A stretch of 45,174 nt of DNA. Origin: a virus. The first letter of the stretch is position 1; each line of letters begins with the position of its first letter. A program made the translations under genes and the position numbers. Below are positions 10,161-40,579 of the stretch, piece by piece. The notes under the pieces are model-generated. The model was not told the origin of the DNA. It did no database searches and saw only the letters and a program-made list of their open reading frames with translations. The stretch covers positions 808 through 45,981 of the IMG/VR virus record IMGVR_UViG_3300008113_000091. The stretch is one strand, 5' to 3'.

Positions 10161-10411
10161 TATTCTACCCTCCAACAGCGCACCTCACCCGCCTCGCGGT
10201 CGGTGCGGACAGTGAACTTCCAGCCATACCTACGGGTGTGTTGGGTGGTTGCTGAGCGTAGCTTGAGTGCAGCGCGGTCTTCCCCGTTGTGCATCTCACC
10301 TGCCAGCGGTACAGCAAAGCTGTCCCCTACGACCATATCAGGGAAGGGGTACTTCCGTGGTCGCCCCTCGGTGGGTGGTGGAACTGGTACGTCCTTGTCG
10401 ATCTTGATCAT
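10160..10411 (-). CDS. Small conserved-looking phage protein, 83 aa
   Basis: A compact domain with KYPFPDMVVGDSFAVPL near residue 20 and a closing pattern RRYGWKFTVRT ... VRCWRV. This matches a type of small domain found widely beside phage replication genes, with no known function. Its ATG overlaps the polymerase stop, so it is translated with it. Confidence 0.65.
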   Translation of the reverse strand: MIKIDKDVPVPPPTEGRPRKYPFPDMVVGDSFAVPLAGEMHNGEDRAALKLRSATTQHTRRYGWKFTVRTDREAGEVRCWRVE

Positions 10412-12294
10412 CAGCAGTCTCCGTAGTTGTCTGCACGACCTGACTCACAGGCCACCGGCAGATCAGGTGCCCAAGCCGGAGGTTCAGACATGATCCGGAT
10501 GATCTCCTGCTCGGCCTTATCAGCGCCTTCGCTTGGCACTACGCACACGTTCTCGTCATGGACTTGGAAGGCGACGAAGTGTCCGGCCAGTCCGAGCTTG
10601 ACCATCTGACCACGGACAATGATACCGGCCAGTGCCTGCACGATATTCTCTACGACCTTCCCGCCGTATATCCGTGTCCATGTCAGGTCGTCGAGGTCGC
10701 CGCCCGATACCCGCTGCGTCACGGCCTTACGGTAGGTGCGCGGGTCGTTGATGTACTCGAACCCATCCTTGGTCTGGCGCAGTGCAGGGTAGGTGATGCG
10801 CAGTCCGTTAGGTAGCAGGATGCCATCGCTGTCATAGCAGATAACCTCCCTGAGTGTGCCGCTGCGGTTGCCCACCATATCTTTGAGTATCTGACCGCAG
10901 GTCTGCCAAAGCTGGACGATCTTCCAGTACTTCTGCCGGTAGAGTCGGACGATGCGCTGCGCCTCGTTCTCGTCGATGTGGATTTTGGCGAGGGCCAGTG
11001 TCTTGCGGAACTTGTCGGCACCCATGCCGTAGCCAAGACCGAGGATGCAGGTCTTACCGACAAACCTCTCGGTGTAGTCTGCCTTGGTGATGGTGCGACC
11101 ATACACATCGCTGGCGAACTCGGAGTACACATCGCGCCCGTCACGGAACGACTGCACCAGATCGTCCTGCCCTGCCAGCCATGCCACGGTGCGCGCTTCG
11201 ATCTGACTGGAGTCACAGGCGATGATCTCGTAACCCTCCGGTGTGCGCAGTGCCTGTCTGATGGTGGTGTTGCCACGGCTCGGGAGGTTCTGGAGGTTCA
11301 CCTTGTCGCCACCCGAGAACCTGCCAGTGTGTGCCCCGTAGTAGTTCAGCATGATGGGCAGCGGGCCACGGCCAGCGATGCCGATGAACGCTTCGGTGCG
11401 GGTCTCCTCAAGCGTGGACTTGGTGCCGAGACGTGCCTCAACCGCAGCCCGGACACGTTCGTCAGGGTGCTCAAGCAGATCGGTCAGCGCCTTGTCGGTC
11501 TTGCTGAAGGCGTAGCTATCCTTGCCGGTACGGGGGCTGACCTTCGTCGGTGGCTCCACACCAAGCAGGTGCAACAGACTGGCGAACTGCGCGTTGCTCA
11601 TCAGCAGAGACTTGAGTGCGGCAGGGTCGAACTGCTCGCCCATACCGACAACACCAGCCAGTTCCTTGAGCAAGTCGTCCTTGCGTTGGCGCACCTCTAC
11701 GAGATGCTTCTCCAGCAGTGGGACATCGAGTTCGATCTTCGGCTCGGTGTACATCCGCAGGGTCTGGTCGATCACCAGTAGCTCGTGCGCTGGCAGTTCC
11801 TTCTTGAGGTTGAGCCACAGTTGGTAGGTCAACTCCACGTCGTTGACGCAGTAGTCGGCGTAGCGTTGCAGTTCTTCCTGAGAGAAGTCTGCGTAGCGTT
11901 TGCCGAGGGCGTTGACCACCTCGTCACCCTTGACCCCCAGTTTGTAGTAGGTCGCCAGTGCCTTGAGGCTGCCGCCCACAGTGACGTTGTGGATGGGGCG
12001 AGCCATCGACAGGGTATCCAACCACAGCTTGGGCTTCACGCCGTAGTGCCATGATAGAATAGCCCCGTCGAAGGCCGTGTTGTGGCAGAGGATGGCTGCC
12101 TTGGAGAAGTCAATGGCTTGCAGGATGTGCGCGACGAGGGGTTTGGGAACCCACTTGACCGGCCCGTTATTCTTCTTGATCCCCACGAGGATCACCTCGA
12201 ACTGAGGGTCGCGGATGTACGACTCCGTGGTCATCTTGGAAAGACTGAACGTCTTTGAGTAGAAAGTTTCCATGTCCACCGTGTAGATATCCAC
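10411..12294 (-). CDS. Family A DNA polymerase with 3'-5' exonuclease domain
   Basis: A 627-aa replicative polymerase. The exonuclease domain has D7-x-E9 (Exo I), HNTAFD at 71-76 (Exo II) and YCVNDVELT near 148-156 (Exo III), so proofreading residues appear intact. The polymerase domain has motif A with D361 (CDSSQIEAR), motif B as R410-K414-YG422-423 (ERFVGKTCILGLGYGMG), and motif C as VHDE at 578-581. Length and order match single-subunit phage polymerases lacking the 5'-3' exonuclease of Pol I. The start is GTG at 12294 with GAGGG upstream. A sigma70-like promoter lies just before it. Confidence 0.96.
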   Translation of the reverse strand: MDIYTVDMETFYSKTFSLSKMTTESYIRDPQFEVILVGIKKNNGPVKWVPKPLVAHILQAIDFSKAAILCHNTAFDGAILSWHYGVKPKLWLDTLSMARPIHNVTVGGSLKALATYYKLGVKGDEVVNALGKRYADFSQEELQRYADYCVNDVELTYQLWLNLKKELPAHELLVIDQTLRMYTEPKIELDVPLLEKHLVEVRQRKDDLLKELAGVVGMGEQFDPAALKSLLMSNAQFASLLHLLGVEPPTKVSPRTGKDSYAFSKTDKALTDLLEHPDERVRAAVEARLGTKSTLEETRTEAFIGIAGRGPLPIMLNYYGAHTGRFSGGDKVNLQNLPSRGNTTIRQALRTPEGYEIIACDSSQIEARTVAWLAGQDDLVQSFRDGRDVYSEFASDVYGRTITKADYTERFVGKTCILGLGYGMGADKFRKTLALAKIHIDENEAQRIVRLYRQKYWKIVQLWQTCGQILKDMVGNRSGTLREVICYDSDGILLPNGLRITYPALRQTKDGFEYINDPRTYRKAVTQRVSGGDLDDLTWTRIYGGKVVENIVQALAGIIVRGQMVKLGLAGHFVAFQVHDENVCVVPSEGADKAEQEIIRIMSEPPAWAPDLPVACESGRADNYGDC

Positions 12295-13001: not shown

Positions 13002-13204
13002 TTCCCTATCCTTATTCTGTCTGGGTCTTTGCGGTATAGCTCCCAGTAGTAGACTTCACGGAACCACTTGTACCGCTGCTTCTGATGGTGCCTGACTGCT
13101 GTTGCGTAGCGTTGGATATCCTCACTCCAGTGACCGTGGAGCCGCAGCAAGGTGAGGGATTGCCTCACCCTGAATCGACCGGGCCACCACTTGGGCAAGT
13201 CCAT
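12998..13204 (-). CDS. Hypothetical basic protein, 68 aa
   Basis: A very basic and aromatic small protein (MDLPKWWPGRFRVRQSLTLL; YKWFREVYYWELYRKD). The composition suggests nucleic-acid contact but no motif is recognised. Start ATG 13204 overlaps the upstream stop as TGATG; longer upstream readings are shadow of the neighbouring gene. Confidence 0.6.
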   Translation of the reverse strand: MDLPKWWPGRFRVRQSLTLLRLHGHWSEDIQRYATAVRHHQKQRYKWFREVYYWELYRKDPDRIRIGK

Positions 13205-13845
13205 CACAGCCCTCCGAGTTTGCTCGCTGCCATCACCGCTGTCAGTCGGGTCGTATCCACATCGGGTGCTGCCTTCTCGGGCTTGTTGCGCACCGTGATC
13301 TCTTTGTGTTTGTTCTTGATGTGCTCCGGCAGCAGTTCCCACAGGGGAGGCCATGCCTTGAGAGCCGGAGACAGCGTCGAGTAGGTGGAGAGCAGCTTGG
13401 ATACACCATCGGAGAACTCCTGTGACTGTCTACGGATAGCATCGCAGCGTGTTTTCCATGCTGTCACCTCGGCGCACAGTTGCTCCCACACAGGGTCATC
13501 CTTAAGGCTGATAAAGCTGCCGTCGTAGCCACTCACCTCCGCAGGGGCATCAGCGGGCAGGTTCTTGGGCCACGGCTTGGGTGAGGACAGTTCGAACGTC
13601 AGGTTTACATACTGCCCGTATCCGGTGCGTTGGGTGGCGATCCTAGTGCGGTGTTCGAAGAACTCCGTGGGTAGCTGCTGCATGATGGGTAGGTACTGCC
13701 CGAGGATTTTCTCGTAGATGTAGTCACCCCACTGGGTACCAGTCGGCGCACTGTTCTCCGCCTTGACGAGGCGGTCGTGGAACTTACCCTTGGCCCTTTG
13801 CAGGACGATATCGGTCAGTTCCTTAGTGATGCGTACTGTCGCCAT
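13204..13845 (-). CDS. Nmad5-like protein (putative nucleotide modification-associated domain)
   Basis: A 213-aa protein starting MATVRITKELTDIVLQRAKG, continuing with an Arg/Lys-rich helix, a YLPIMQQLPTEFF segment and a beta-rich part. This overall plan resembles the Nmad5 domain, a phage family linked by gene neighbourhood to DNA base modification. The resemblance is from memory and not tested. The C-terminal 80 residues are helical and end near the small basic gene. ATG 13845 is chosen because AAGGAG lies seven bases upstream. Confidence 0.5.
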   Translation of the reverse strand: MATVRITKELTDIVLQRAKGKFHDRLVKAENSAPTGTQWGDYIYEKILGQYLPIMQQLPTEFFEHRTRIATQRTGYGQYVNLTFELSSPKPWPKNLPADAPAEVSGYDGSFISLKDDPVWEQLCAEVTAWKTRCDAIRRQSQEFSDGVSKLLSTYSTLSPALKAWPPLWELLPEHIKNKHKEITVRNKPEKAAPDVDTTRLTAVMAASKLGGL

Positions 13846-14044
13846 AGTCATTCTCCTTCATGTCTTTGATTGCTCGGTCGATGCTGTCGCTGAGTTCAGC
13901 CATCAGCTTGGTCTTGTCCATGCCTGATGACAGGCAGATATCTGCGAGGATGTAGGTCATCACGGACATGATCGTACTCAGTCGGTGTCCGTTGCAGGCT
14001 TGGCCTACCTCGACAAACAGGTCTTCAATATCTTGTTCTACCAC
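13823..14044 (-). CDS. Hypothetical protein, 73 aa (GTG start)
   Basis: A helical, acidic small protein (VEQDIEDLFVEVGQACNGHR; KLMAELSDSIDRAIKDMKEN). GTG 14044 has GGGGAG eight bases upstream and overlaps the stop of the VWA gene. Its last 23 bases carry the Shine-Dalgarno and start of the Nmad5-like gene. Function unknown. Confidence 0.6.
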   Translation of the reverse strand: MVEQDIEDLFVEVGQACNGHRLSTIMSVMTYILADICLSSGMDKTKLMAELSDSIDRAIKDMKENDYGDSTHH

Positions 14045-15168
14045 TTCACGATCTCCCCAAACGGTGCGGACTCAGCACCATCAGTGACCCAGAGCACAGG
14101 GTAGGCAGGCTCGGGGCCGAAGTCAGAGCAATACAGGTCGGTCAGGAACACACAGGCCACAGGCTCGATGTCGTTCTCCTCCATGTAGCGGAACACAGGG
14201 CTGAAGGCCGTGCCTCCACCGCCGTGCGGCTTGATGTCGAGCGTATCGCCCGGCTCATAGACATCCGCATGAGAGACCTTGTGGTCGAAGTAGATCACAT
14301 GCAGTCTGCGGGGACGGAAGTGCTCGAACATCTTGGTCACCTCGGCAGCAGCCTGATTGATCTGCGTCGGGGTGATGGAGCCGGAGCAGTCAACGCAGAA
14401 GGCGATCTCACCCATGCTCTCGCCAGTGATGCTCGGCATGTAGAGACCTTGTGCTGCGAAGATGCGGCTCGGTCTGGCGTAGGTGCGCTGGTCAGTGCGG
14501 GCCTTCTCGGCGAAACGCCACATCACGTCGGCCCAGTTGACCTTGGGTTGCAGCACCTCATCGACAAGTCGCTGCATGTTGGCAGACATCTTGCCCATCA
14601 TCTTGGCTGCCTGTGCAGCCTGTGCCACCTGCACCTTCATCTCGGCAGCAGCCTTGGCCTGCTCCGCAGGGCTGCCACCACCGTCCTGACAGTCGTCATA
14701 GGCTTCACCGCCGTCGCTGTCGTCATCGGGCAACAGGTTGTAGATGCCGTCACTGGTGCCGTTGCCAGCGTTGTAGAGGTTGGGATCGAGACACCCGCCC
14801 GGGATGAACTTGCCGATGCCCTCCTGCGTCAGCAGGTGGTTGATCACATAGTCAGCGGCCTTGTTCCACTTGGACTGGTTGCGCTCACCACGTCGGTAGT
14901 TGTGCTCCAGCATGGGGTGGAAGCACTCGTGCGCCACGAGGAACTTGAGTTGCTCGTCACACAGCGGGTCGATGAACGACGGGTTGAAGATCACCCGCTT
15001 GCCGTCGGTCGCTGCCGTCGGAACCTCATCGCTGAGGGTGAACGGCATGTTGAGAGCGATAGTCCCGACGAACGGGTGCTCAAGGATGAGGGAAGTCTTG
15101 GCCTTAGCCAGACGACGGTTGAGTGCGGCGACATCGCCGGTGAACTCATGCTTCACTGCTGCTTGCAT
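14038..15168 (-). CDS. VWA domain protein with N-terminal HExxH metallopeptidase-like domain (DUF2201-like)
   Basis: A 376-aa protein with two domains. The N-terminus has a zinc-peptidase motif HECFH (80-84) followed by KWNKAADYVINHLL, the pattern of DUF2201-type domains. A low-complexity acidic/Ala-rich linker runs about 145-195. The C-terminal VWA-like domain has a complete metal site: D260-x-S262-x-S264 (DCSGS), T320 in GGGGTAF, and D344 in FLTD. VWA proteins of this class act with MoxR ATPases, and one is encoded two genes upstream on the same strand. The substrate is unknown. Start ATG 15168 overlaps the end of a 57-aa ORF. Confidence 0.88.
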   Translation of the reverse strand: MQAAVKHEFTGDVAALNRRLAKAKTSLILEHPFVGTIALNMPFTLSDEVPTAATDGKRVIFNPSFIDPLCDEQLKFLVAHECFHPMLEHNYRRGERNQSKWNKAADYVINHLLTQEGIGKFIPGGCLDPNLYNAGNGTSDGIYNLLPDDDSDGGEAYDDCQDGGGSPAEQAKAAAEMKVQVAQAAQAAKMMGKMSANMQRLVDEVLQPKVNWADVMWRFAEKARTDQRTYARPSRIFAAQGLYMPSITGESMGEIAFCVDCSGSITPTQINQAAAEVTKMFEHFRPRRLHVIYFDHKVSHADVYEPGDTLDIKPHGGGGTAFSPVFRYMEENDIEPVACVFLTDLYCSDFGPEPAYPVLWVTDGAESAPFGEIVKW

Positions 15169-15319
15169 TGCTTTTCTCCTGTTTATCTATCGCTTCGATG
15201 ATACCGTTGAGGGTGGCGGACTGCATCCCATCGCAGACGTACTTCTGCTGCTTGAGATCGTAGTATATCCGCCGCCCTCGGTACTCGCCGGAGCCTACTT
15301 GCTTAGGCCCGTACGTCAC
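15146..15319 (-). CDS. Hypothetical protein, 57 aa (GTG start)
   Basis: Read directly: VTYGPKQVGSGEYRGRRIYY, then a short helical tail ending NASSSEA. The GTG overlaps the upstream stop as GTGA with a G-run before it, and the 3' end overlaps the VWA start by 23 bp. Small, basic, unrecognised; it may be a partner of the MoxR-VWA module by position only. Confidence 0.5.
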   Translation of the reverse strand: MTYGPKQVGSGEYRGRRIYYDLKQQKYVCDGMQSATLNGIIEAIDKQEKSNASSSEA

Positions 15320-16167
15320 TGGCCCCCCATGAAGACGCTCATCGCGTCCATGATCTTGCGTGCTTCCTCTGCTGCATCCTGACGCAGGTCAGGGTCATTG
15401 CGCAGGCTGTCAGGGTGGTGCCCCAGCAGCTTGCTCTCCACTGCCTGTCGCATCGCTTCGAGGTTGGGGTCTTCTGCGATGTTGAGGCGAGTCAGCAGGT
15501 CGCAGGTCTCGACTGCGTTGTCGATCATGCTGTCACGGAAGATACCCTTGGGGTCAGCGAGCTTCTCGGTGATATGCTCGACGTGCTTATACAGCCGATG
15601 CCAACAGTCACTCATCGCCTCCTGCTGCACCGTGGTCATGCGGGTTTCGAGTTCCTCTTGGATGCGGGTCAACTCATCGCTCGACAACTCCACACGGAAG
15701 TCGTTGCTCGGCACAGGCAGGATCGCCATGTCCATGTTGAACTTGTTGGTGATGCTCTCCTTGGAGGGGTAGTCCTTCTCATCATAGAGATCACCAAGCC
15801 ACCGCTTGGCCTCAGCCACGAGGTATTCATAGTTGTCGAGGAAAGTCTGAACGAGATACTGCCACTCGGCCTTCTCCTTGCGGAAGTCCTGCATGAATTG
15901 CAGGTAGTTGGCACTCGGCAGGATGCGGGTGCCGTCGATACCCCACGGCAGGGTGTTCTTGGCGAACTTCTCGCGGATCACACCGGTCTTCTGGTGGACG
16001 TGGGCAAGCTGGTCGTTGAGCGGAAGCAGAGACTTGTTGTAGCGTCCGGCACTGGTGCTGGCACGGTTGATGTCAGCGACTTCCTTGGTCGCCTTCTTGT
16101 CGAGTTTGCGGGCAGTCCACTGCGAGATCGACAGGGACACGAGGAGGGCACGGTCATTGAGTTTCAT
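15316..16167 (-). CDS. Large helical protein of the MoxR-VWA module (DUF3150-like?)
   Basis: A 283-aa mainly alpha-helical protein (MKLNDRALLVSLSISQWTAR at the start; KRWLGDLYDE, LTRIQEELETRM). It lies between the MoxR ATPase and the VWA gene, the position often taken by DUF3150-type proteins in phage MoxR-VWA clusters. That link is by context and general character only. Two in-frame ATGs are possible; the one at 16167 has GGAG ten bases upstream, whereas the one at 16176 is almost touching it. Confidence 0.6.
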   Translation of the reverse strand: MKLNDRALLVSLSISQWTARKLDKKATKEVADINRASTSAGRYNKSLLPLNDQLAHVHQKTGVIREKFAKNTLPWGIDGTRILPSANYLQFMQDFRKEKAEWQYLVQTFLDNYEYLVAEAKRWLGDLYDEKDYPSKESITNKFNMDMAILPVPSNDFRVELSSDELTRIQEELETRMTTVQQEAMSDCWHRLYKHVEHITEKLADPKGIFRDSMIDNAVETCDLLTRLNIAEDPNLEAMRQAVESKLLGHHPDSLRNDPDLRQDAAEEARKIMDAMSVFMGGQ

Positions 16168-16182
16168 AGTATACATACTCCA

Positions 16183-16398
16183 CTACTTACCAAGCAACCG
16201 CTGCTTGGTTTTGAAAGCGAGGTAGTCCTCGGGGTATTGCAACGCGAGTTCCCCAAGGCGGGCAAGAACGGCGCGCCGCCCTGCTCTACTGGCATCCAGT
16301 TGTTGGTGCCGGTGCAGTAGCTCCATCCTTTTGTGTGGCTGACGCTCCAGAAGAAACGCCAGCCACGCCTTGGCCTCGCTGACCTCGGACAGGTACAT
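16183..16398 (-). CDS. Hypothetical basic helical protein, 71 aa
   Basis: Starts MYLSEVSEAKAWLAFLLERQ and continues as a Leu/Arg-rich helix (RAGRRAVLARLGELALQ). ATG 16398 overlaps the MoxR ATPase stop as TGATG, so it is coupled to it. It could be an adaptor of the ATPase module, but no motif proves this. Confidence 0.6.
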   Translation of the reverse strand: MYLSEVSEAKAWLAFLLERQPHKRMELLHRHQQLDASRAGRRAVLARLGELALQYPEDYLAFKTKQRLLGK

Positions 16399-17393
16399 CA
16401 GAACAGCACGTCCTGATGCGACAAGCTCCACTTGACGAAGGCTGGGGTGCTGGACAGGTCGGGGTTCTTGCGCAGTGCCTGACTGATCATAAGCACAGAG
16501 AACTCAGCAGGCATACGCTCGGCGTAGGTCACAGCCCTGTCCATGTTGCTGTCAGTGATGCGAGATGCGAGCGAACCAGACAGTGCGTAGAGCGTAGCCG
16601 GATCGGTCGGCACCTCTGCCGTTGACGGGTTCATCAGGACAGCATCAGGGTTGGGCAGCTTGCGCCAGATGCGCATGAAGCCAACGAACTCAGCGGCTGC
16701 ACCCTCACCGACGGCACCCTTGAAGCACTCGTACTCTGCATCGAAGGGCACAGTGCCAAGCACATCGGAGACACCTTCGACCCAGCTACGAGGGGTCGGG
16801 TTAGCGTCACGCTGCGGGTCGAAGTCATGGAGCAGGCCGGGCCGGAACCGGATGAAGCTAACCACCTCCGGCTTGACCCCGTGGTCGATCATCCACTTGG
16901 TGCTGTCATTGAGGTCGGTCTCGAACTCCAGTGTGGTCTCGCGGTTAGCGAGGTGGCTCAGAGTGCGGACAGCACCGGCACGGTGGGACTGGAGGTTACC
17001 AGTGGACACCACCTGCCAGCCATCAGCCAGAGGCACACCGTGGAGATCACGGGCCTGACAGAGGTGGGCGATAGCCTTCTGGTGGTCAGGCCCTGCCTGA
17101 GTGCGGTCGTCAAACAGCAGGATGCCGCCACGCTCAGTGCCCGCCTTGCCCTGATAGGGGAACCAGTCAGGCATCTTGTAGCCGAAGGACTTACCCTCGG
17201 CCAGCATGTCGGGAGCACCGAAGTCCTCGACCGGAGTCAGCGCAGGATTGCGGATGATGATGGGGAGATCAAGCTCGTCAGCCACCTCTCGCACGATGGT
17301 GGTCTTACCGCCGCCCGGAGGGCCGACGATGAGGACAGTGCGACGGATGCTGTAGAGCGCCTTGAGCGTTCCCTTGAGAAGTTCTGCACGCAT
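16398..17393 (-). CDS. MoxR-like AAA+ ATPase
   Basis: A 331-aa single AAA+ module. Walker A is GPPGGGKT at 24-31. The Walker B strand is ILLFDD at 91-96, with Asp in place of the usual Glu. A sensor-1-like VVSTGNLQ follows, then an arginine-finger-type region. MoxR proteins are chaperone-like ATPases that remodel a target through a VWA partner (RavA-ViaA, NorQ-NorD and CobS-CobT are known pairs). Here the partner is the VWA gene downstream. The D-for-E change at the catalytic position deserves note. GGAG sits nine bases before the ATG. Confidence 0.88.
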   Translation of the reverse strand: MRAELLKGTLKALYSIRRTVLIVGPPGGGKTTIVREVADELDLPIIIRNPALTPVEDFGAPDMLAEGKSFGYKMPDWFPYQGKAGTERGGILLFDDRTQAGPDHQKAIAHLCQARDLHGVPLADGWQVVSTGNLQSHRAGAVRTLSHLANRETTLEFETDLNDSTKWMIDHGVKPEVVSFIRFRPGLLHDFDPQRDANPTPRSWVEGVSDVLGTVPFDAEYECFKGAVGEGAAAEFVGFMRIWRKLPNPDAVLMNPSTAEVPTDPATLYALSGSLASRITDSNMDRAVTYAERMPAEFSVLMISQALRKNPDLSSTPAFVKWSLSHQDVLF

Positions 17394-17397
17394 GGTA

Positions 17398-17571
17398 TTA
17401 TTCTCCTTCGTAGAGCTTGTGGTCAGGGCCGAAGGTCACGACAGTGCGGCCTCCGAGACGGTCACGAAGCTGCTTCGCTTCCATCTTGTTGTCGAAGTGG
17501 AGCGGCTCGCCGAACTGGTCAGTGATCAGCGGCCCCTTCTTGTGTTCTCGCAGTGCAAACAGACGACGCAT
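17398..17571 (-). CDS. Hypothetical protein, 57 aa
   Basis: Read directly: MRRLFALREHKKGPLITDQF, followed by KMEAKQLRDRL and TVVTFGPDHKLYEGE. It is a small mixed-fold domain with a basic N-terminus. Its ATG overlaps the upstream gene end by one base, and its 3' end carries the GGAG used by the MoxR gene. Function unknown. Confidence 0.6.
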   Translation of the reverse strand: MRRLFALREHKKGPLITDQFGEPLHFDNKMEAKQLRDRLGGRTVVTFGPDHKLYEGE

Positions 17572-17867
17572 TACCAATACCTCCGGATGTCGTTGATGAG
17601 TTCAGCAGCTTCTTCGAGGGCATCCACCATCTCAGGATCACCCTCTGAAGTCAGGTCAGTCAGCCGGTCGAGCGCGGCGAACAACTCCTGAGCGTGGATC
17701 ATGCTGGCCGTAGCCAAGTCGATATCGTGGGTTGTCTGCCCCTGCCGAGGCAGTATCGTGGTGGTTACACGGACAACCTTCTGCCCGTTCATCTCGGCAC
17801 CACCGACACGAACCATGATCGGTTCCTTTGGCGAGCGAGTGTATACTTCTTCATTTTCGACACGCAT
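17571..17867 (-). CDS. Hypothetical protein, 98 aa
   Basis: The N-terminal half is beta-rich (KVVRVTTTILPRQG) and the C-terminal half is an acidic helix bundle (AQELFAALDRLTDL; DALEEAAELINDIRRYW). Not recognised. The ATG overlaps the upstream stop as TAATG. Confidence 0.6.
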   Translation of the reverse strand: MRVENEEVYTRSPKEPIMVRVGGAEMNGQKVVRVTTTILPRQGQTTHDIDLATASMIHAQELFAALDRLTDLTSEGDPEMVDALEEAAELINDIRRYW

Positions 17868-18463
17868 TACACAGTCTCCTCATCCTCGATAACGTCGAGG
17901 TCGTTGGCCACAATGGCCTCCCACACAGCTTCATCGCTGGTCAGGTAGTCGTAAGTCTCTTCGAGCCGTCGGTAGAGATCGCGGCAGTAGTCACGGACGA
18001 TCTCGGTCACAGCCTCGCAGATGGTCGCATACTCGGCATCGAGTTTCACATCCCACTGCTCGATGACCTCTGCCCTGAGACCGTCGCTCGGCAGGATGTG
18101 GTAGAACATGTCAGTGTGTGACAGACCAACGCCGACAGTGTTCTCGTGGGCGTATCTCCGGTCTGCAATGCGCTCGATAGACAGTGTAAACCCACCGCCC
18201 AGAGACATGAGTTTGGTGATCCACGGATAGCTCTCCGTGAGATTGTGCTGATCGAAGAACATCTTGTTGTTGCTGACGTAGCCGGTGAACGACGCGCCAT
18301 CACCCTGTGACCAGAAGCCGCTGAACCGCATGTCGTAGACATGGATACCCTTGGCTGCCATATCACAGATGAAGTCGTCGTAGACGCCATCCCACCAGTC
18401 GATGTGCTCGACGTTGAAGTCGCGATACTGCTCGATGAGAGCCTGTTTCTGCTCGTCAGTCAT
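17867..18463 (-). CDS. Conserved phage protein of unknown function, 198 aa
   Basis: A soluble acidic protein starting MTDEQKQALIEQYRDFN. The central block IHVYDMRFSGFWSQGDGASF is a pattern I associate with a family of uncharacterised phage proteins, recalled and not searched. The C-terminus is a long acidic helix (VRDYCRDLYRRLEETYDYL). It overlaps its upstream gene by 8 bp. No catalytic motif is evident. Confidence 0.7.
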   Translation of the reverse strand: MTDEQKQALIEQYRDFNVEHIDWWDGVYDDFICDMAAKGIHVYDMRFSGFWSQGDGASFTGYVSNNKMFFDQHNLTESYPWITKLMSLGGGFTLSIERIADRRYAHENTVGVGLSHTDMFYHILPSDGLRAEVIEQWDVKLDAEYATICEAVTEIVRDYCRDLYRRLEETYDYLTSDEAVWEAIVANDLDVIEDEETV

Positions 18464-20756: not shown

Positions 20757-21037
20757 AGGGCGATCTCCACAGAGCGGTCGTTGTTGTAGGTGATATCGAC
20801 GGCGGTGTAGCCGTGGCGCTTCAGAGTGGCGGTGTCCAAGGACGAAATGAAGCAGCCATGAAACGGGCTGGTCGGGTCAACCACGATGAAGTCATGACCC
20901 ACAGAGAAATCATACACAGCGTCAACTTCCGAGAGGTAGTGACGGCGGCGGGGCACCACAGAGAGTGCTTTGGAGACGGTGTAAATGTCAGCGAGATCAT
21001 CAAACGATGTAAACTTAGTCCGGTTCATAACCTTCAT
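20753..21037 (-). CDS. First gene of leftward operon, hypothetical, 94 aa
   Basis: A mixed alpha/beta protein (FTSFDDLADIYTVSKALSVV; DAVYDFSVGHDFIVVDPTSP). It is the first leftward gene after the A+T-rich control region, hence probably immediate-early. Two ATGs (21037 and 21028) are possible, with AAGGA or GAAGG close by. The sequence TATACAT just upstream on the minus strand could be a -10, but a matching -35 is not clear. Function unknown. Confidence 0.65.
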   Translation of the reverse strand: MKVMNRTKFTSFDDLADIYTVSKALSVVPRRRHYLSEVDAVYDFSVGHDFIVVDPTSPFHGCFISSLDTATLKRHGYTAVDITYNNDRSVEIAL

Positions 21038-21156
21038 TCCTTATGTATACTGGACGAGGATCGCCCCAGCCCCGAGGTTTTGCCACGACCCGCCGCCGAG
21101 GTCAAGCGCCTCGTTGCTACTAAAATTTACATATGGGCTGTGTATAGCCACGGGTC

Positions 21157-21261
21157 AATCAAAATTAGAACGCGTTTGAAATTTAATCTTTACGTATAAT
21201 AATCAAAATAAAAACGTGTCGGAAATTTAAATTTAAAATAAAAACGCGTCTGAAATTTAAT
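21157..21261. repeat. Three iteron-like repeats in A+T-rich control region
   Basis: Three related ~30-base units lie at 21157-21187, 21201-21231 and 21233-21261. Each has an A/T-rich arm, a core ACGCGT or ACGTGT, and the tail GAAATTTAA. Cores start at 21170, 21214 and 21244, so units two and three are spaced exactly 30 bases. Units two and three differ at about 4 of 29 positions. Such iterons usually bind an initiator or a regulator. The position in the divergent gap between the leftward and rightward gene sets supports an origin or a switch. Confidence 0.7.
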
Positions 21262-21766
21262 TGGATTGTGTAAAGTATGTGATATGGTGTTGATATACCA
21301 CGATAATGTTGAAACTAGGCATGGAGCAACAATCTAGTATAGTTAGGCAAATGATCCACTGTAAGTGCTTGAAAACACGGCAATGATATAGATAATCTAC
21401 TTTTTTGGAGATAAAGGCGCGCAAATGGGAAAATTTTTGTGGGGGGTTGGTAAGTATACAGTGTTCAGTTGCATATTGAAACGGAAAAATTGCTCGCGCG
21501 AAAGGATTGATTTCCAAAAAAGTTGGATTTTTTATATTATTTATATTATTAGAACTAGACACACTCCCACAGGCCCTTGGTTTTAAAAGCGTTTTCCTGT
21601 GGCTATACGTATACTTTGTGTAGTTAGGTAAATAATCGCCGCTATACATCTTGGGTGTATCGTCCCAGTTGACCCCAAGCGTAAGCCGTTGGTTTAACAC
21701 GATTAATCCAATTTCATCTGCTAGATTTTGGCCCAAATCTTCGTCCGATATGGCATTCATAGACAT
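21257..21766 (-). CDS. Doubtful leftward ORF inside the A+T-rich region, up to 169 aa
   Basis: An open frame without stops in A+T-rich DNA. The first ~70 residues look protein-like (ISDEDLGQNLADEIGLIVLN; LGVNWDDTPKMYSGDYLP). The rest is rich in Asn, Ile, Phe and Cys and looks like translated non-coding DNA. A TATACT lies upstream on the minus strand, and AGG sits seven bases before the second ATG (21760). It could be an early gene of foreign composition, a decayed gene, or chance. The wholly longer reading to 22153 is antisense to a convincing gene and is not used. Confidence 0.25.
   Translation of the reverse strand: MSMNAISDEDLGQNLADEIGLIVLNQRLTLGVNWDDTPKMYSGDYLPNYTKYTYSHRKTLLKPRACGSVSSSNNINNIKNPTFLEINPFARAIFPFQYATEHCILTNPPQKFSHLRAFISKKVDYLYHCRVFKHLQWIICLTILDCCSMPSFNIIVVYQHHITYFTQSN
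21340..21637. repeat. 17-base direct repeat pair in control region
   Basis: TAGTTAGGCAAATGATC at 21340-21356 recurs as TAGTTAGGTAAATAATC at 21621-21637, with two mismatches and 281 bases apart. Both copies follow a TATA-like motif (GTATAG; GTATACTTTG). They are possible binding sites of one regulator. The DNA between them has no supported gene apart from the doubtful leftward ORF. Confidence 0.4.
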
Positions 21767-21818
21767 ACCTATGTATAGCGCTGTGAAAAGTATACACGGG
21801 GTTCGGCCAAAAGAAAAC

Positions 21819-21846
21819 TTGACGCTAGGCCGCAATCGGCTATTCT
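21819..21846 (+). promoter_or_regulatory. Sigma70-like promoter of the 21905 gene
   Basis: TTGACG (21819-21824), a 16-base spacer, and TATTCT (21841-21846). Transcription would start near 21853, about 50 bases before the ATG of the 145-aa gene. A terminator closes the unit at 22362-22397. Confidence 0.6.
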
Positions 21847-21904
21847 GGACAGGCCAAGGCGAGGTGCCGAGGCTCTGGAATAACTCTGTGAAGGATTGAA
21901 TATC

Positions 21905-22546: not shown

Positions 22547-23224
22547 ATGAAGCGGGACCTGCCAGTCGAACACATCCGTCGGGCTTTTCGGTACGATCCG
22601 GAAACCGGAGTGATTCTCCGCGCACCACATTGGAAAAAGGTTAGCGTCCGGGCCGACGGAGCGAAGTCTGGCGCGTCGGTAAAAATCGGTACAATGCGGT
22701 TATCTGCGCGTAGGCTCGTCTGGGCGTTGGTTACTGGTACGTGGCCACCGGCACATCCCGGCTATATCCGTACTCGCAACGGTGACCCCTTGGACCTGCG
22801 CTGGGCCAACCTGTATTCGCGGGACGACGAGTCTCACTGTGCGCGCTGTGATACATTCAAGCCAGTTAGCGAGTTCCACTCCCGTGGGGTGACAAAGACT
22901 GGTCTCCCGCTATACGTGGCCTACTGCAAGCCATGCACTGCGCTTCGGCATCAGGAGCGTCCTGATTGGGCGCATCGAAACAAGGTGAAGAAATATGGCC
23001 TGACCGAGCAGTGCTACGCCGACATGCTTGCTGAGCAGGGGGGTGTGTGCGCGATCTGCAAAGACCCTCCGGGTGTCCGACGTCTAGCAATCGACCACTG
23101 CCACAGCACCGGAGTGGTACGGGGTCTTCTCTGCGGACCATGCAACGTCTCGCTTGGGCAGTTCAAAGACAACCCCCGTATTCTGCTAGAAGCTGCGAAG
23201 TACTTGATAAAACGTCGGTCCTGA
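22547..23224 (+). CDS. Endonuclease VII-type HNH nuclease with N-terminal degenerate HNH-like domain
   Basis: A 225-aa protein in three parts. Residues ~10-92 resemble the HNH_3/homing-endonuclease fold (RLSARRLVWALVTG ... RNGDPLDLRWANL), but the catalytic His position is Ile or Arg, so it may only bind DNA. Residues 98-130 form a CxxC...CxxC zinc ribbon (C98, C101, C127, C130). Residues 165-222 are recombination endonuclease VII-like, with C168-x2-C171, DHCH (183-186) and C196-x2-C199. Endonuclease VII enzymes cut branched DNA before packaging; homing activity is the alternative. The SD AAAGGGG is well placed. Confidence 0.85.
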   Translation: MKRDLPVEHIRRAFRYDPETGVILRAPHWKKVSVRADGAKSGASVKIGTMRLSARRLVWALVTGTWPPAHPGYIRTRNGDPLDLRWANLYSRDDESHCARCDTFKPVSEFHSRGVTKTGLPLYVAYCKPCTALRHQERPDWAHRNKVKKYGLTEQCYADMLAEQGGVCAICKDPPGVRRLAIDHCHSTGVVRGLLCGPCNVSLGQFKDNPRILLEAAKYLIKRRS

Positions 23225-23272: not shown

Positions 23273-23348
23273 GCCGCAATAGCTCAGAGGTAGCAGCAAC
23301 CGCCTTGTAAGCGGTAGGTCGTAGGTTCGACTCCTACTTGCGGCACCA
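23273..23348 (+). tRNA. tRNA-Thr (anticodon UGU)
   Basis: A 76-base cloverleaf. The acceptor arm GCCGCAA pairs with TTGCGGC and ends in encoded ACCA. The anticodon stem ACCGC/GCGGT encloses CTTGTAA with anticodon TGT at 23306-23308. The T arm is GTAGG-TTCGACT-CCTAC. The D stem is short (GCT/AGC). It decodes ACA, an uncommon Thr codon in G+C-rich genomes. It ends 24 bases before the small terminase ATG and could be processed from the same transcript. Confidence 0.93.
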
Positions 23349-24012: not shown

Positions 24013-24219
24013 GTGATATACGATTGGGTCTCTGCGATGGTCTACGAAGCTGACGATACCAGCCACTTTCACATTGTCCCCATCGGTGATCTGCGTGACC
24101 ACGAGGCAGACCCGCGCTGCTGGTGCAGACCGACCGAGGATGAGGAAGACCCCGGCATCTGGGTGCACCACGCGATGGACGGGCGTGAGCAGTACGAGCA
24201 GGGTAGGATGAAACACTGA
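24013..24219 (+). CDS. Hypothetical acidic protein, 68 aa (GTG start)
   Basis: A small acidic protein with His/Cys/Trp residues (DPRCWCRPTEDEEDPGIWVH). Its stop overlaps the large terminase ATG as TGATG, so it is coupled to it. Not recognised; a metal site is possible. Confidence 0.6.
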   Translation: MIYDWVSAMVYEADDTSHFHIVPIGDLRDHEADPRCWCRPTEDEEDPGIWVHHAMDGREQYEQGRMKH

Positions 24220-25607
24220 TGGCCCTGACGATCAACTACACCCCGCCGCCTACCGGTGCGCGGTTCATGGCGAGCAACGCCAAGATGCGGGCGCTCATGG
24301 GTCCGGTCGGGTCGGGTAAGTCTGTGACCTGCTGCTTCGAGATCATCCGCAGGGCCTCGATGCAGGAACCTGATGATCGCGGCATTCGCCGCACGAGAGC
24401 CGCTGTGGTCCGTGAAACCGCCCGGCAGTTGGAAGACACCACGATCAAGACCTTCCTCGACTGGTTTCCCCCGGGCCAGTGCGGAACGTGGCTGCGGACC
24501 AAGAAGACCTACTACTTCAAGGTCGGGGATGTGGAGTGCGAGATCATGTTCCGCGCTCTCGATGACGCAGACGACGTGGCCAACCTGAACTCGCTGGAGC
24601 TTACTTTTGCGTGGTTCAACGAGTGTCGCGACATCCACCCCGATATCGTCGATGCCATGTCCAAACGTGTCGGTCGTTTCCCGTCTGCCAAGGATGGCGG
24701 GCCGACGTGGCATGGGATGTGGGGTGATACCAACCCGCCGACGATGGACACTTGGTGGTACTACCAGTTCGAGAAGCTCGATCCCAAGGACGGCGTCTCG
24801 CCCAACGACAACGGCTGGGATGTGTTCAAGCAGCCTTCGGGTCGCAGTCCCTACGCCGAGAATATCGAGAACCTACCCGACGGGTACTACGATACGCAGG
24901 GGCGGTCGGAGGAGTACATCCGGGTCTTCATCGACGGCGAGTACGGCCTGTCCAGTGCAGGGCAGCCGGTCTACAAGTACTTCAGGCCGGACTACCACAT
25001 GGGCAAGCAGCCGCTTCGACCCATCGTCAACGGGATGCGGCCCATCATCGTGGGGATGGACCTCGGGCTTACCCCTGCCGCTGTCCTCGGGCAGCAGGAC
25101 CCACGGGGGCGGGCGCTCATCCTCGCCGAGGCGGTGAGCTTCGACATGGGCATCCAGCGGTTCATCCGGACTGTCCTCAAGCCGTTGCTCTACGAGCGCT
25201 TCAGTGGTGCCCCGGTGCTCATCGTGGTTGACCCGGCGGGTATCCAGCGGGCGCAGACTGACGAGCGCAGCGCGGTGGACATCATCAAGGCCGAGGGGTT
25301 CAGGGTCATCCCGGCGCGGACCAACAGCGTCTCGGCGCGGATCAACGCGGTTGATGATTACCTCATGCGGCAGGTGGACGGTGACCCGGGGTTCCTGCTT
25401 GATCCGCGCTGTACCGCGCTCAAGGCTGCCATGATGGGTGGCTACCGGTACAAGCCCAAGACCGACGGGGCCATCGACAAGAACAAGCACTCCCACGTTG
25501 CCGAAGCGCTCCAGTACCTGTGCCTCCATCTGCACAGCGGTGGCGAGGCCGGACACCTCCCGCAGAGGCGCGAGATCAGACCTGTTGCGTCCGCTGGCTG
25601 GACCTGA
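24219..25607 (+). CDS. terL: Terminase large subunit
   Basis: A 462-aa packaging motor. The ATPase has Walker A GPVGSGKS at 28-35 and a Walker B-type strand LTFAWFNE at 128-135. The RNase H-like nuclease has D281 (GMDLG), D338 (VVDPAG) and the late HSHVAEALQYL block. It pumps DNA into the prohead through the portal and cuts the concatemer. The length is typical of podovirus large terminases. It is followed by a strong hairpin terminator. Confidence 0.95.
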   Translation: MALTINYTPPPTGARFMASNAKMRALMGPVGSGKSVTCCFEIIRRASMQEPDDRGIRRTRAAVVRETARQLEDTTIKTFLDWFPPGQCGTWLRTKKTYYFKVGDVECEIMFRALDDADDVANLNSLELTFAWFNECRDIHPDIVDAMSKRVGRFPSAKDGGPTWHGMWGDTNPPTMDTWWYYQFEKLDPKDGVSPNDNGWDVFKQPSGRSPYAENIENLPDGYYDTQGRSEEYIRVFIDGEYGLSSAGQPVYKYFRPDYHMGKQPLRPIVNGMRPIIVGMDLGLTPAAVLGQQDPRGRALILAEAVSFDMGIQRFIRTVLKPLLYERFSGAPVLIVVDPAGIQRAQTDERSAVDIIKAEGFRVIPARTNSVSARINAVDDYLMRQVDGDPGFLLDPRCTALKAAMMGGYRYKPKTDGAIDKNKHSHVAEALQYLCLHLHSGGEAGHLPQRREIRPVASAGWT

Positions 25608-31584: not shown

Positions 31585-32508
31585 ATGTCGTACCCCGTCT
31601 CCCCCGGTCGTCCGAATTACTCGGGCAACTTCATCCCCGAAATCTGGTCGGGCAAGCTGATCGAGAACTTCTACGACGCCACCGTGCTCGCAGCGATCTC
31701 GAACACCGACTACGAGGGTGAAATCCGTCAGTTCGGTGACACCGTCAACATCCGCACCACCCCGGAGATCACGATCCGCGACTACGTCAAGGGTCAGGCC
31801 CTGACTGTCGAGAACCCGGACAAGCCGAAGATTCAGCTTGTCATCGACAAGGGCGAATACTTCGCCTGCGTCGAGGACGACGTGGACAAGGTGCAGTCGG
31901 ACATCAACCTGATGGACACTTGGTCGAAGGACGCCTCGGAGCGTATGAAGATCAAGATCGACCAGCGCGTGCTGACCGACATCCTGCCGGGCATCGCCAC
32001 GACCAACAAGGGTGCCACCGCTGGTGAGCAGTCGGCTTCGTTCAACCTCGGCACGACCGGCGCTCCGCTGACCGTGACCAAGGACGGCGCTGGCGGCAGC
32101 ACCTCGGTGATCGACCTGATCGTCGATATGGGCACCGTGCTCGACGAAGCCAACGCTCCGGAAGCCGACCGCTTCCTCGTCATTCCGGCCAAGATGGCTG
32201 GTCTGATCAAGAAGTCGGAACTCAAGGATGCCTCGCTGACCGGCGACGGCGTCTCGGTGGTCCGTAACGGTCGCCTCGGCATGATCGACCGCTTCACCGT
32301 GTATGTGAGCCACAACCTGCTGGTCTCGTCGGGTAAGTACAACCTGATCGCTGGCCACAAGATGGGCTTCACCTTCGCGTCGCAGATGACCAACATGGAG
32401 ACCATCCGTTCCGAATCGACCTTCGGCAACATCATCCGTGGTCTTCAGGTCTATGGCTATCAGGTCATCAAGCCGGAAGCTCTCTCGACTGCCGTCGTCC
32501 AGTTCTGA
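31585..32508 (+). CDS. Major capsid protein (HK97-fold, P22-coat-like)
   Basis: A 307-aa protein beginning MSYPVSPGRPNYSGNFIPEI. The FGDTVNIRTTPEITIRDYVK stretch and the later VSHNLLVSSGKYNLIAGHKM segment are typical of P22-like coat proteins of this size. Codon use is strongly biased to G/C-ending codons, as expected for the most expressed gene. A UUCG-capped hairpin follows immediately. Hundreds of copies make the icosahedral shell. Confidence 0.9.
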   Translation: MSYPVSPGRPNYSGNFIPEIWSGKLIENFYDATVLAAISNTDYEGEIRQFGDTVNIRTTPEITIRDYVKGQALTVENPDKPKIQLVIDKGEYFACVEDDVDKVQSDINLMDTWSKDASERMKIKIDQRVLTDILPGIATTNKGATAGEQSASFNLGTTGAPLTVTKDGAGGSTSVIDLIVDMGTVLDEANAPEADRFLVIPAKMAGLIKKSELKDASLTGDGVSVVRNGRLGMIDRFTVYVSHNLLVSSGKYNLIAGHKMGFTFASQMTNMETIRSESTFGNIIRGLQVYGYQVIKPEALSTAVVQF

Positions 32509-39858: not shown

Positions 39859-40185
39859 ATGGCCAAGAAAGGCTATTGGCAGACCAAGAAGGGCAAGTCT
39901 GCTATCCAGCAGCAAGGCGCTATTGATGCCGCAGGCGCTATGCGTGTCACTCCTGCTACGCAGAACTCTCTCGGTAGCGTCGATACCGGTATGGTCCGCG
40001 CCCCGAGTATGGGTATTGCCCCCGGCAGTCTCCCCGGGCGCGGTACGATGCAGACCTTCGATAGCAAGCTCATCGCGCAGGGTCCGACGACCGGGTTCGG
40101 TAGCTTCCGTGGCGGCACGTCGATCTCCGGCGTAGAGCGCAAGGCAACCGGTTCGCTCGGTGGCACCACCTTCAGGGCGCGGTAA
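39859..40185 (+). CDS. Hypothetical virion-cluster protein, 108 aa
   Basis: A basic, Gly/Thr/Ser-rich, probably disordered protein (MAKKGYWQTKKGKSAIQQQG; GGTSISGVERKATGSLGG). Starts one base after the stop of the Cys-rich gene. Not recognised. Confidence 0.55.
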   Translation: MAKKGYWQTKKGKSAIQQQGAIDAAGAMRVTPATQNSLGSVDTGMVRAPSMGIAPGSLPGRGTMQTFDSKLIAQGPTTGFGSFRGGTSISGVERKATGSLGGTTFRAR

Positions 40186-40186
40186 G

Positions 40187-40579
40187 ATGAGCATCGTGCT
40201 CGGCACTCGCTCGCTGTCGCGCCTTGAGGGGGTTCATCCCGATCTGGTGCGTGTCGTCAAGAAAGCCGCTGCGATGTCGGACCTCGACTTCACGGTACTC
40301 GAAGGGCTGCGCACCATCGAGCGTCAGCAGCAGCTTATGAAGCAGGGTGCCACCAAGACGCTCAACTCGCGTCACCTGACGGGACATGCTGTCGATCTGG
40401 CACCCATGATCGGCGGAAAAGTATCTTGGGACTGGCCGCTTTACCATCGACTGGCCAAGATCGTGAAGGCCGCTGCGGCGGCTGAGAACGTCCCCATCCA
40501 GTGGGGTGGGGACTGGCGTACCTTCAAGGATGGCCCGCATTGGGAACTGCCTTGGAAGGTCTATCCGAAAGGAAAGTAG
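40187..40579 (+). CDS. Endolysin: M15-type peptidase (L-Ala-D-Glu / D-Ala-D-Ala carboxypeptidase fold)
   Basis: A 130-aa single catalytic domain. The zinc site is visible as SRHLTGHAVDL (H63, D70) and GPHWELP (H118), with WGGDW before it, which is the M15C pattern. It cuts peptide cross-links in peptidoglycan. ATG 40187 is chosen over an upstream start because it has GGTAAG nearby and avoids overlap with the preceding gene. The lack of a binding domain is normal for Gram-negative phages. Holin and spanin genes follow. Confidence 0.9.
   Translation: MSIVLGTRSLSRLEGVHPDLVRVVKKAAAMSDLDFTVLEGLRTIERQQQLMKQGATKTLNSRHLTGHAVDLAPMIGGKVSWDWPLYHRLAKIVKAAAAAENVPIQWGGDWRTFKDGPHWELPWKVYPKGK

Follow-up and report, generated by a model that had tools for sequence, protein, structure and literature searches.

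A three-gene module of a MoxR-like ATPase, a DUF3150-like protein and a HExxH–VWA protein shared by a phage group and plasmids

We analyzed a 45-kb window (45,174 nucleotides) out of the 45,981-base IMG/VR virus record IMGVR_UViG_3300008113_000091, in which the genes for a MoxR-like AAA+ ATPase, a DUF3150-like helical protein and a protein joining an HExxH zincin-like domain to a VWA domain lie in this order beside the replication genes. In our view, the three proteins probably form an ATP-driven protein-remodelling machine, which would act within the infected cell while replication is under way. The ATPase and the VWA protein are relatives of gp24 and gp25 of phage N4. Overall, the module is a distinct, three-component form of a pair already known from phages and bacteria, and the new evidence speaks against a role in the virion alone; the DUF3150-like component is new relative to the known ATPase–VWA pair. 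An earlier note on this DNA, made by a model from the sequence alone, had described the region as one operon of five open reading frames (ORFs). All five exist as described, on the minus strand and, as transcription runs, upstream of the polymerase gene:

16398-17393, minus strand: AAA+ ATPase, MoxR/Midasin-like, 331 amino acids (aa), N4 gp24 relative, first gene of the triad (PHROG 1297, Midasin profile match, invariant residues)
16183-16398, minus strand: 71-aa ORF, not conserved; its ATG overlaps the ATPase stop (TGATG)
15316-16167, minus strand: DUF3150-like helical protein, second gene of the triad (weak PF11348, MinM2 homologue, fold match)
15146-15319, minus strand: 57-aa ORF with a GTG start, not conserved
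14038-15168, minus strand: DUF2201 protein, 376 aa, N4 gp25 relative, third gene of the triad (PF13203 and PF09967)
approx. 14926-14931, minus strand: HExxH codons H80-E81 of the VWA protein, placed by residue counting within 14038-15168

Conserved residues and linkage of the three proteins

The 376-aa protein matched PF13203 DUF2201_N, a putative metallopeptidase (2.7e-41, 142.4 bits; cut-off 23.2), and PF09967 DUF2201, a VWA-like domain (1.1e-22, 80.9 bits; cut-off 26.4), as well as PHROG 1314 (7.8e-96). Its architecture is an N-terminal HExxH zincin-like domain followed by a C-terminal VWA domain with a metal ion-dependent adhesion site (MIDAS). When 97 homologues of phage and bacterial-genome origin were aligned, H80, H84, H89, D106, N110, D260, S262, G263, S264, D295 and D344 were invariant, and the HExxH glutamate E81 was present in 96/97. 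The intact VWA metal site read from the window by the earlier note was borne out across the homologues: MIDAS residues D260, S262, S264 and D344 were kept in all 97 and T320 in 96. A second, separate alignment (13 rows, including 5 plasmid members) gave identical invariant histidines, acid and MIDAS residues. Judging from these alignments, the conservation of the HExxH and MIDAS residues is not a matter of chance. The zincin domain resembled the peptidase selecase MJ1213 in two weak, independent comparisons (profile, 0.0015; fold, 0.034).

The name "HNH endonuclease" is attached to this DUF2201 protein in PHROGs and in many phage records (e.g., NC_019516.2 F417_gp056), a mislabel that is still being copied. 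We consider the chance that the VWA gene encodes an HNH endonuclease to be negligible: apart from the PHROG 1314 label and its repetition in phage records, the protein showed no HNH Pfam match at E 0.1, and the strong DUF2201_N and DUF2201 matches span its whole length. In phage G7C, a separate HNH gene sits between gp24 and gp25, and this is possibly the origin of the label.

The ATPase carries the Walker A motif GPPGGGKT and matched PHROG 1297 (9.7e-61). Its best PDB match was Midasin (3.7e-32), obtained with a profile of the window protein and seven diverse phage relatives. AAA_5 (PF07728) reached 0.0014 in the window ATPase, below the cut-off, and among the relatives (n = 8) AAA_5 was found in four and AAA_3 in three. 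Residues G27, G29, K30, D95, N133 (sensor), R151, P201 and R202 were invariant in 79 ATPase homologues. The second acid of Walker B is D96 in the window, as the earlier note had remarked of a position where E is usual; it was D in 52/79 homologues and E in 27/79. Among the homologues taken from named phages and bacterial genomes, 25 of 27 have E. By this comparison, Asp at this position is typical of the phage clade of the window.

The helical protein is 283 aa long when read from the ATG at which most homologues also start, and 286 aa long from the first ATG. Its match to PF11348 (DUF3150) was sub-threshold (0.0025; 17.6 bits vs. a cut-off of 24.9), and 7/18 relatives matched at E ≤0.01, with a best value of 0.0015. 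Cyanophage MinM2 encodes a homologue (31% identity) that carries the DUF3150 annotation and is matched by Cupriavidus plasmid proteins with the same annotation. In addition, the structure model of the helical protein matched a viral DUF3150 protein (fold match, 9.6e-16); the structure models in this analysis had mean predicted local distance difference test (pLDDT) values of 71 and 79, which is moderate confidence. A fold search of the PDB with the DUF3150 model gave nothing at E 0.001, only generic helical bundles, and we found no mention of DUF3150 in the literature searched. A Pfam match to OPA1_C (9e-5) was set aside as chance; it was below the cut-off, lay in a helical region and occurred in 2/18 members. 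On the level of homology, we regard the helical protein as DUF3150-like and as a third component no less constant than the ATPase and the VWA protein. The earlier note had listed the protein and missed this status.

Linkage was assessed in 80 viral loci, which were the nearest only, fetched from viral contigs with the VWA protein as the sole bait and including some near-copies. The DUF3150-like gene was present in 76/76 loci with room for one, and the order and strand ATPase–DUF3150–VWA were kept in all 61 loci with room for all three genes. The dN/dS values of the three large genes against the closest fetched relative were 0.075, 0.095 and 0.117; that is, these genes are under purifying selection. 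Meanwhile, homologues of the 57-aa ORF were found in 0/80 loci and those of the 82/71-aa ORF in 6/80, and in one sister locus (L010) the three large genes abut, leaving no space for either ORF. Therefore, we place both small ORFs outside the conserved module, and three of the five proteins grouped in the earlier note remain in it. The polymerase gene lay downstream in 35/35 loci having ≥7 kb of downstream flank, and PolA, exonuclease and helicase neighbours occurred in nearly all loci with sufficient flank. The placement among early genes given in the earlier note thus agrees with a position beside replication genes that is conserved in the viral loci.

Distribution of the pair and of the three-gene form

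The VWA protein was found by tblastn in at least 556 phage records, many of them N4-like with the gp24–gp25 pair; further carriers are jumbo phages, Thermus phage phiFa and cyanophages. DUF2201_N exceeded its cut-off in 54/200 bacterial genomes from the order to which a Paucibacter metagenome-assembled genome (MAG) belongs. Chromosome loci comprised 18 from DUF2201_N genomes and three found by contig scan, one of which was cut at a contig end; the ATPase gene lay beside the VWA gene in 20/20 with room (the 18 and two contig-scan loci). Two wide alignments yielded no pattern conserved enough for contig scans. The earlier note had claimed a MoxR-type ATPase paired with an HExxH and VWA protein of the DUF2201 type, and this pairing stands in viruses and chromosomes alike. 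Its grounds for abandoning the module, namely a missing DUF2201 domain with an unconserved HExxH, or genes that do not co-occur, were not encountered. However, its view that the HExxH domain sets the phage version apart is mistaken: bacterial chromosomes and plasmids carry the same HExxH–VWA fusion beside the ATPase. Because they occur in N4-like phages, jumbo phages and bacterial chromosomes, the fusion and its pairing with the ATPase are neither new nor phage-specific.

The N4 gp24–gp25 genes (Schitoviridae core genes; PHROG 1297 and 1314) resemble the window in that the ATPase is followed by the DUF2201 metallopeptidase–VWA protein and the conserved residues are shared. However, they form a two-component system on a separate branch of the tree from the window triad, and DUF3150 is nowhere in the G7C record. 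The MoxR and metallopeptidase–vWA pair of group 2.2 jumbo phages (Iyer et al. 2021; PMC7824862) is like the window in its domain fusion and ATPase partner (SP27 locus), whereas SP27 and Ettore are without DUF3150 and their pair has been proposed for virion assembly. DUF3150 was absent from the complete records of G7C, S-TIM5, phiFa, Ettore, SP27, RHph_TM3_14A, pRBH2-3 and pSYSA.

DUF3150 was strong in 2/300 bacterial genomes of the order of the Paucibacter MAG, both with the full triad. It was also found in 41-43 plasmid records, mostly of Burkholderiaceae, and in those read the ATPase and VWA genes flank it on either side; in Simplicispira, the ATPase gene lies 3.6 kb upstream. The triad on Burkholderiaceae, Variovorax and Rhodovastum plasmids agrees with that of the window in its three genes, their order and their side of the tree, and differs in that a plasmid has no virion. 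Plasmid pBcn842-1 is conjugative, and its type IV secretion system/conjugation genes directly follow the triad. Another difference from the window is a PRTRC cassette (ParB-like, small protein C, ThiF-like E1), present in 34/34 Burkholderiaceae plasmid records with DUF3150 and co-resident with the triad on Burkholderia and Cupriavidus plasmids (L108, 2067-16221; L112, 1845-16167). We claim no functional link between the triad and PRTRC, since these plasmids are for the most part built on one backbone and no PRTRC lies near the triad in Variovorax and Rhodovastum. In the literature searched, we found nothing on PRTRC together with plasmid and ubiquitin.

In a tree of concatenated ATPase and VWA sequences (32 rows), one branch separated all 13 triad rows from the rest, with RHph_TM3_14A, itself on a long branch, as the only pair-only row on the triad side. 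A single clade of triad rows was not rejected (approximately unbiased test, p 0.22), and the ATPase and VWA trees agreed with each other (r 0.79; 0/500 permutations as high). On this phylogenetic evidence, the three-gene form is essentially one lineage, common to the phage group of the window, a cyanophage and large plasmids, some of them conjugative. RHph_TM3_14A has the ATPase and VWA genes without a detectable DUF3150. A DNA-level search of phages gave no close sequenced relative of the window; the Rhizobium phages RHph_TM (MN988472.1, MN988461.1-MN988463.1) are the nearest cultured relatives (head protein, 55%; polymerase, 37.5%). Since RHph_TM3_14A is the nearest by head protein and polymerase, loss of DUF3150 in this phage is the simplest reading.

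The Acinetobacter plasmid pRBH2-3 (L110, NZ_CP110465.1, 75 kb) encodes a phage-like RNA polymerase, a toprim protein, a ParB-like protein and a gp24–gp25-like pair, and groups with G7C in the tree. It may be an N4-like phage-plasmid.

Proposed function and alternatives

We propose that the ATPase would form a MoxR/Midasin-type ring, on which the VWA domain would dock with its metal site gripping a ligand on a client; ATP turnover would then pull or twist the client. Since the VWA protein begins with a zincin domain, a client once loosened may be cut, most likely by that domain, a putative peptidase on the same polypeptide as the VWA domain. The DUF3150-like protein would be a helical scaffold or client adaptor, an extra part of the triad lineage. 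The client is probably a host protein or complex at replicating phage or plasmid DNA, not the virion. NorQ–NorD may serve as a structural precedent by analogy; there, the VWA protein NorD is seated on the AAA+ ring and reaches into its pore with a finger; NorD receives the work done by ATP, and its MIDAS has been proposed to bind the client (PMC9976466, PMC13036017). NorQ–NorD and RavA–ViaA resemble the window module in pairing an ATPase, of the MoxR ring type there and putatively so here, with a VWA partner that has a MIDAS; however, these partners are not described with an HExxH domain and their known clients are respiratory enzymes. Midasin (Rea1/Mdn1) resembles the module in its ATPase and, weakly, in a fold-search match of the VWA model to an MDN1-MIDAS/NLE1-UBL entry. 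In Midasin, ring and MIDAS are part of one giant chain, which acts in ribosome assembly and has no peptidase domain.

Three points lead us to an action within the cell at the time of replication: the lineage occurs on plasmids (one with the adjoining conjugation region), its phage neighbours are replication genes, and its relatives in N4 belong to the middle genes. In Chan et al. 2014, gp24 and gp25 are counted among the core genes of N4-like phages and described as middle transcripts in N4 (PMC4193335). In the passages considered, they are not named among the virion proteins that mass spectrometry found in two N4-like roseophages.

Several points weigh against a remodelling machine of this kind. 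Asp in place of Glu in Walker B could slow hydrolysis, and the third zinc ligand has candidates only (the invariant H89 or D106, or another residue). The VWA part of DUF2201 is short (~120 aa), and a NorD-like pore finger could not be shown. RHph_TM3_14A, the closest cultured relative, has no DUF3150, which is thus not indispensable everywhere, and proximity to replication genes is, at most, an indication of timing. The literature searched yielded no experimental data on any member and no reported function for the gp24–gp25 relatives; the four genome-wide CRISPRi-ART screens covered T4, T5, SUSP1 and PTXU04 and thus give no fitness data for N4 gp24/gp25. The caution of the earlier note about the purpose of the module in a phage still applies.

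A more specific version is that the triad is a split ATP-dependent protease, in which the AAA+ ring drives a separate metallopeptidase, coupled to it by a VWA domain, while the DUF3150-like protein serves as substrate adaptor, so that phages and conjugative plasmids cut a host or replisome protein during replication. We put this forward tentatively, as a possibility well short of probable. If true, it would be a new architecture of energy-dependent protease, with motor and peptidase as separate proteins joined by a VWA domain. We consider it unlikely that HExxH binds metal or client without cutting and that the module is purely a remodelling or metal-insertion chaperone working like NorQD, CbbQO or the chelatases. 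The MoxR–VWA pairs of known role are indeed chaperones or metal inserters, not proteases (PMC13036017, PMC7159879), and the incomplete assignment of the zinc site fits this as well. However, mere binding would not need the catalytic glutamate kept in 96/97 homologues, and no metalloenzyme client gene was constant beside the module in the 80 viral loci.

Iyer et al. 2021 proposed that the pair acts in virion assembly or maturation, as a chaperone and co-chaperone that assemble structural proteins processed by the peptidase domain, by analogy with the tail protein system of the archaeal virus ATV (PMC7824862). The pair is widespread in tailed phages, and a second structural gene cluster lies near the gp24/gp25 homologues of N4-like roseophages (PMC4193335). 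We nevertheless regard this role as unlikely for the window triad. The proposal leads one to look for restriction to viruses or linkage to virion genes; instead, the triad lineage occurs on plasmids, the pair occurs on chromosomes without phage context, and, both in the window and in its relatives, the module is grouped with replication genes and lies on the other strand from the structural genes. The plasmid-borne members of the lineage, the replication neighbours and the middle timing in N4 argue against virion assembly, which is the only published proposal that we found. Less likely still is an accessory role in counter-defence or DNA modification, in which the machine would disarm a host defence complex or serve DNA modification with the Nmad5-like protein encoded next door in 77/80 loci. 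Phages and conjugative plasmids share the module and face the same defences, but it is also found on chromosomes, a PADLOC scan gave P-loop matches only and no defence system, and core status in N4-like phages suggests a general need. None of 13 further records of phages and plasmids with the module that were tested had Nmad5. A search of NCBIfam gave nothing specific to the module.

For the proposed remodelling machine, the third partner and the plasmid sister lineage shift attention from virion assembly to an intracellular step common to phages and plasmids, and the triad is a minimal three-protein set for purification and testing. Its importance lies in the spread of the VWA protein through the phage records counted above and in the gp24–gp25 relatives, which are core in N4-like phages.

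Neighbouring genes and genome setting

The window has a podovirus-like gene set on the plus strand and its replication genes on the minus strand, the latter comprising a primase/helicase, a helicase, a nuclease, an exonuclease and a family A DNA polymerase. The features around the module and the structural landmarks are as follows:

10411-12294, minus strand: family A DNA polymerase, the constant context of the module on the same strand
13204-13851, minus strand: 215-aa protein with a sub-threshold Nmad5 match, downstream associate (77/80 loci)
17398-17577, minus strand: 59-aa ORF just upstream of the ATPase gene, moderately conserved (51/80 loci)
17867-18463, minus strand: 198-aa PHROG 5162 protein
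24219-25607, plus strand: large terminase
31585-32508, plus strand: major head protein
40160-40579, plus strand: endolysin
41119-43539, plus strand: internal virion protein

The gene for the 215-aa protein, which the earlier note did not mention, is the most constant neighbour of the triad. The protein matched nucleotide modification associated domain 5 (Nmad5, PF18757) below threshold (8.3e-5), and 9/19 members matched. We regard it as an associate of the machine and do not claim it as a part. In some relatives the 198-aa PHROG 5162 gene is found upstream of the triad, but in others it comes immediately downstream of the VWA gene; thus, it moves around the module.

Between the minus-strand replication genes and the plus-strand genes (~21020-21850), the window contains many promoter-like sites, mostly on the plus strand, with 12 in the scanned region vs. 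5.7 expected. Further along the plus strand, positions 22547-23224 encode a protein that gives an HNH-type match in its N-terminal part and an endonuclease VII-type match in its C-terminal part; its gene is next to that for tRNA-Thr(tgt) at 23273-23348 on the same strand.

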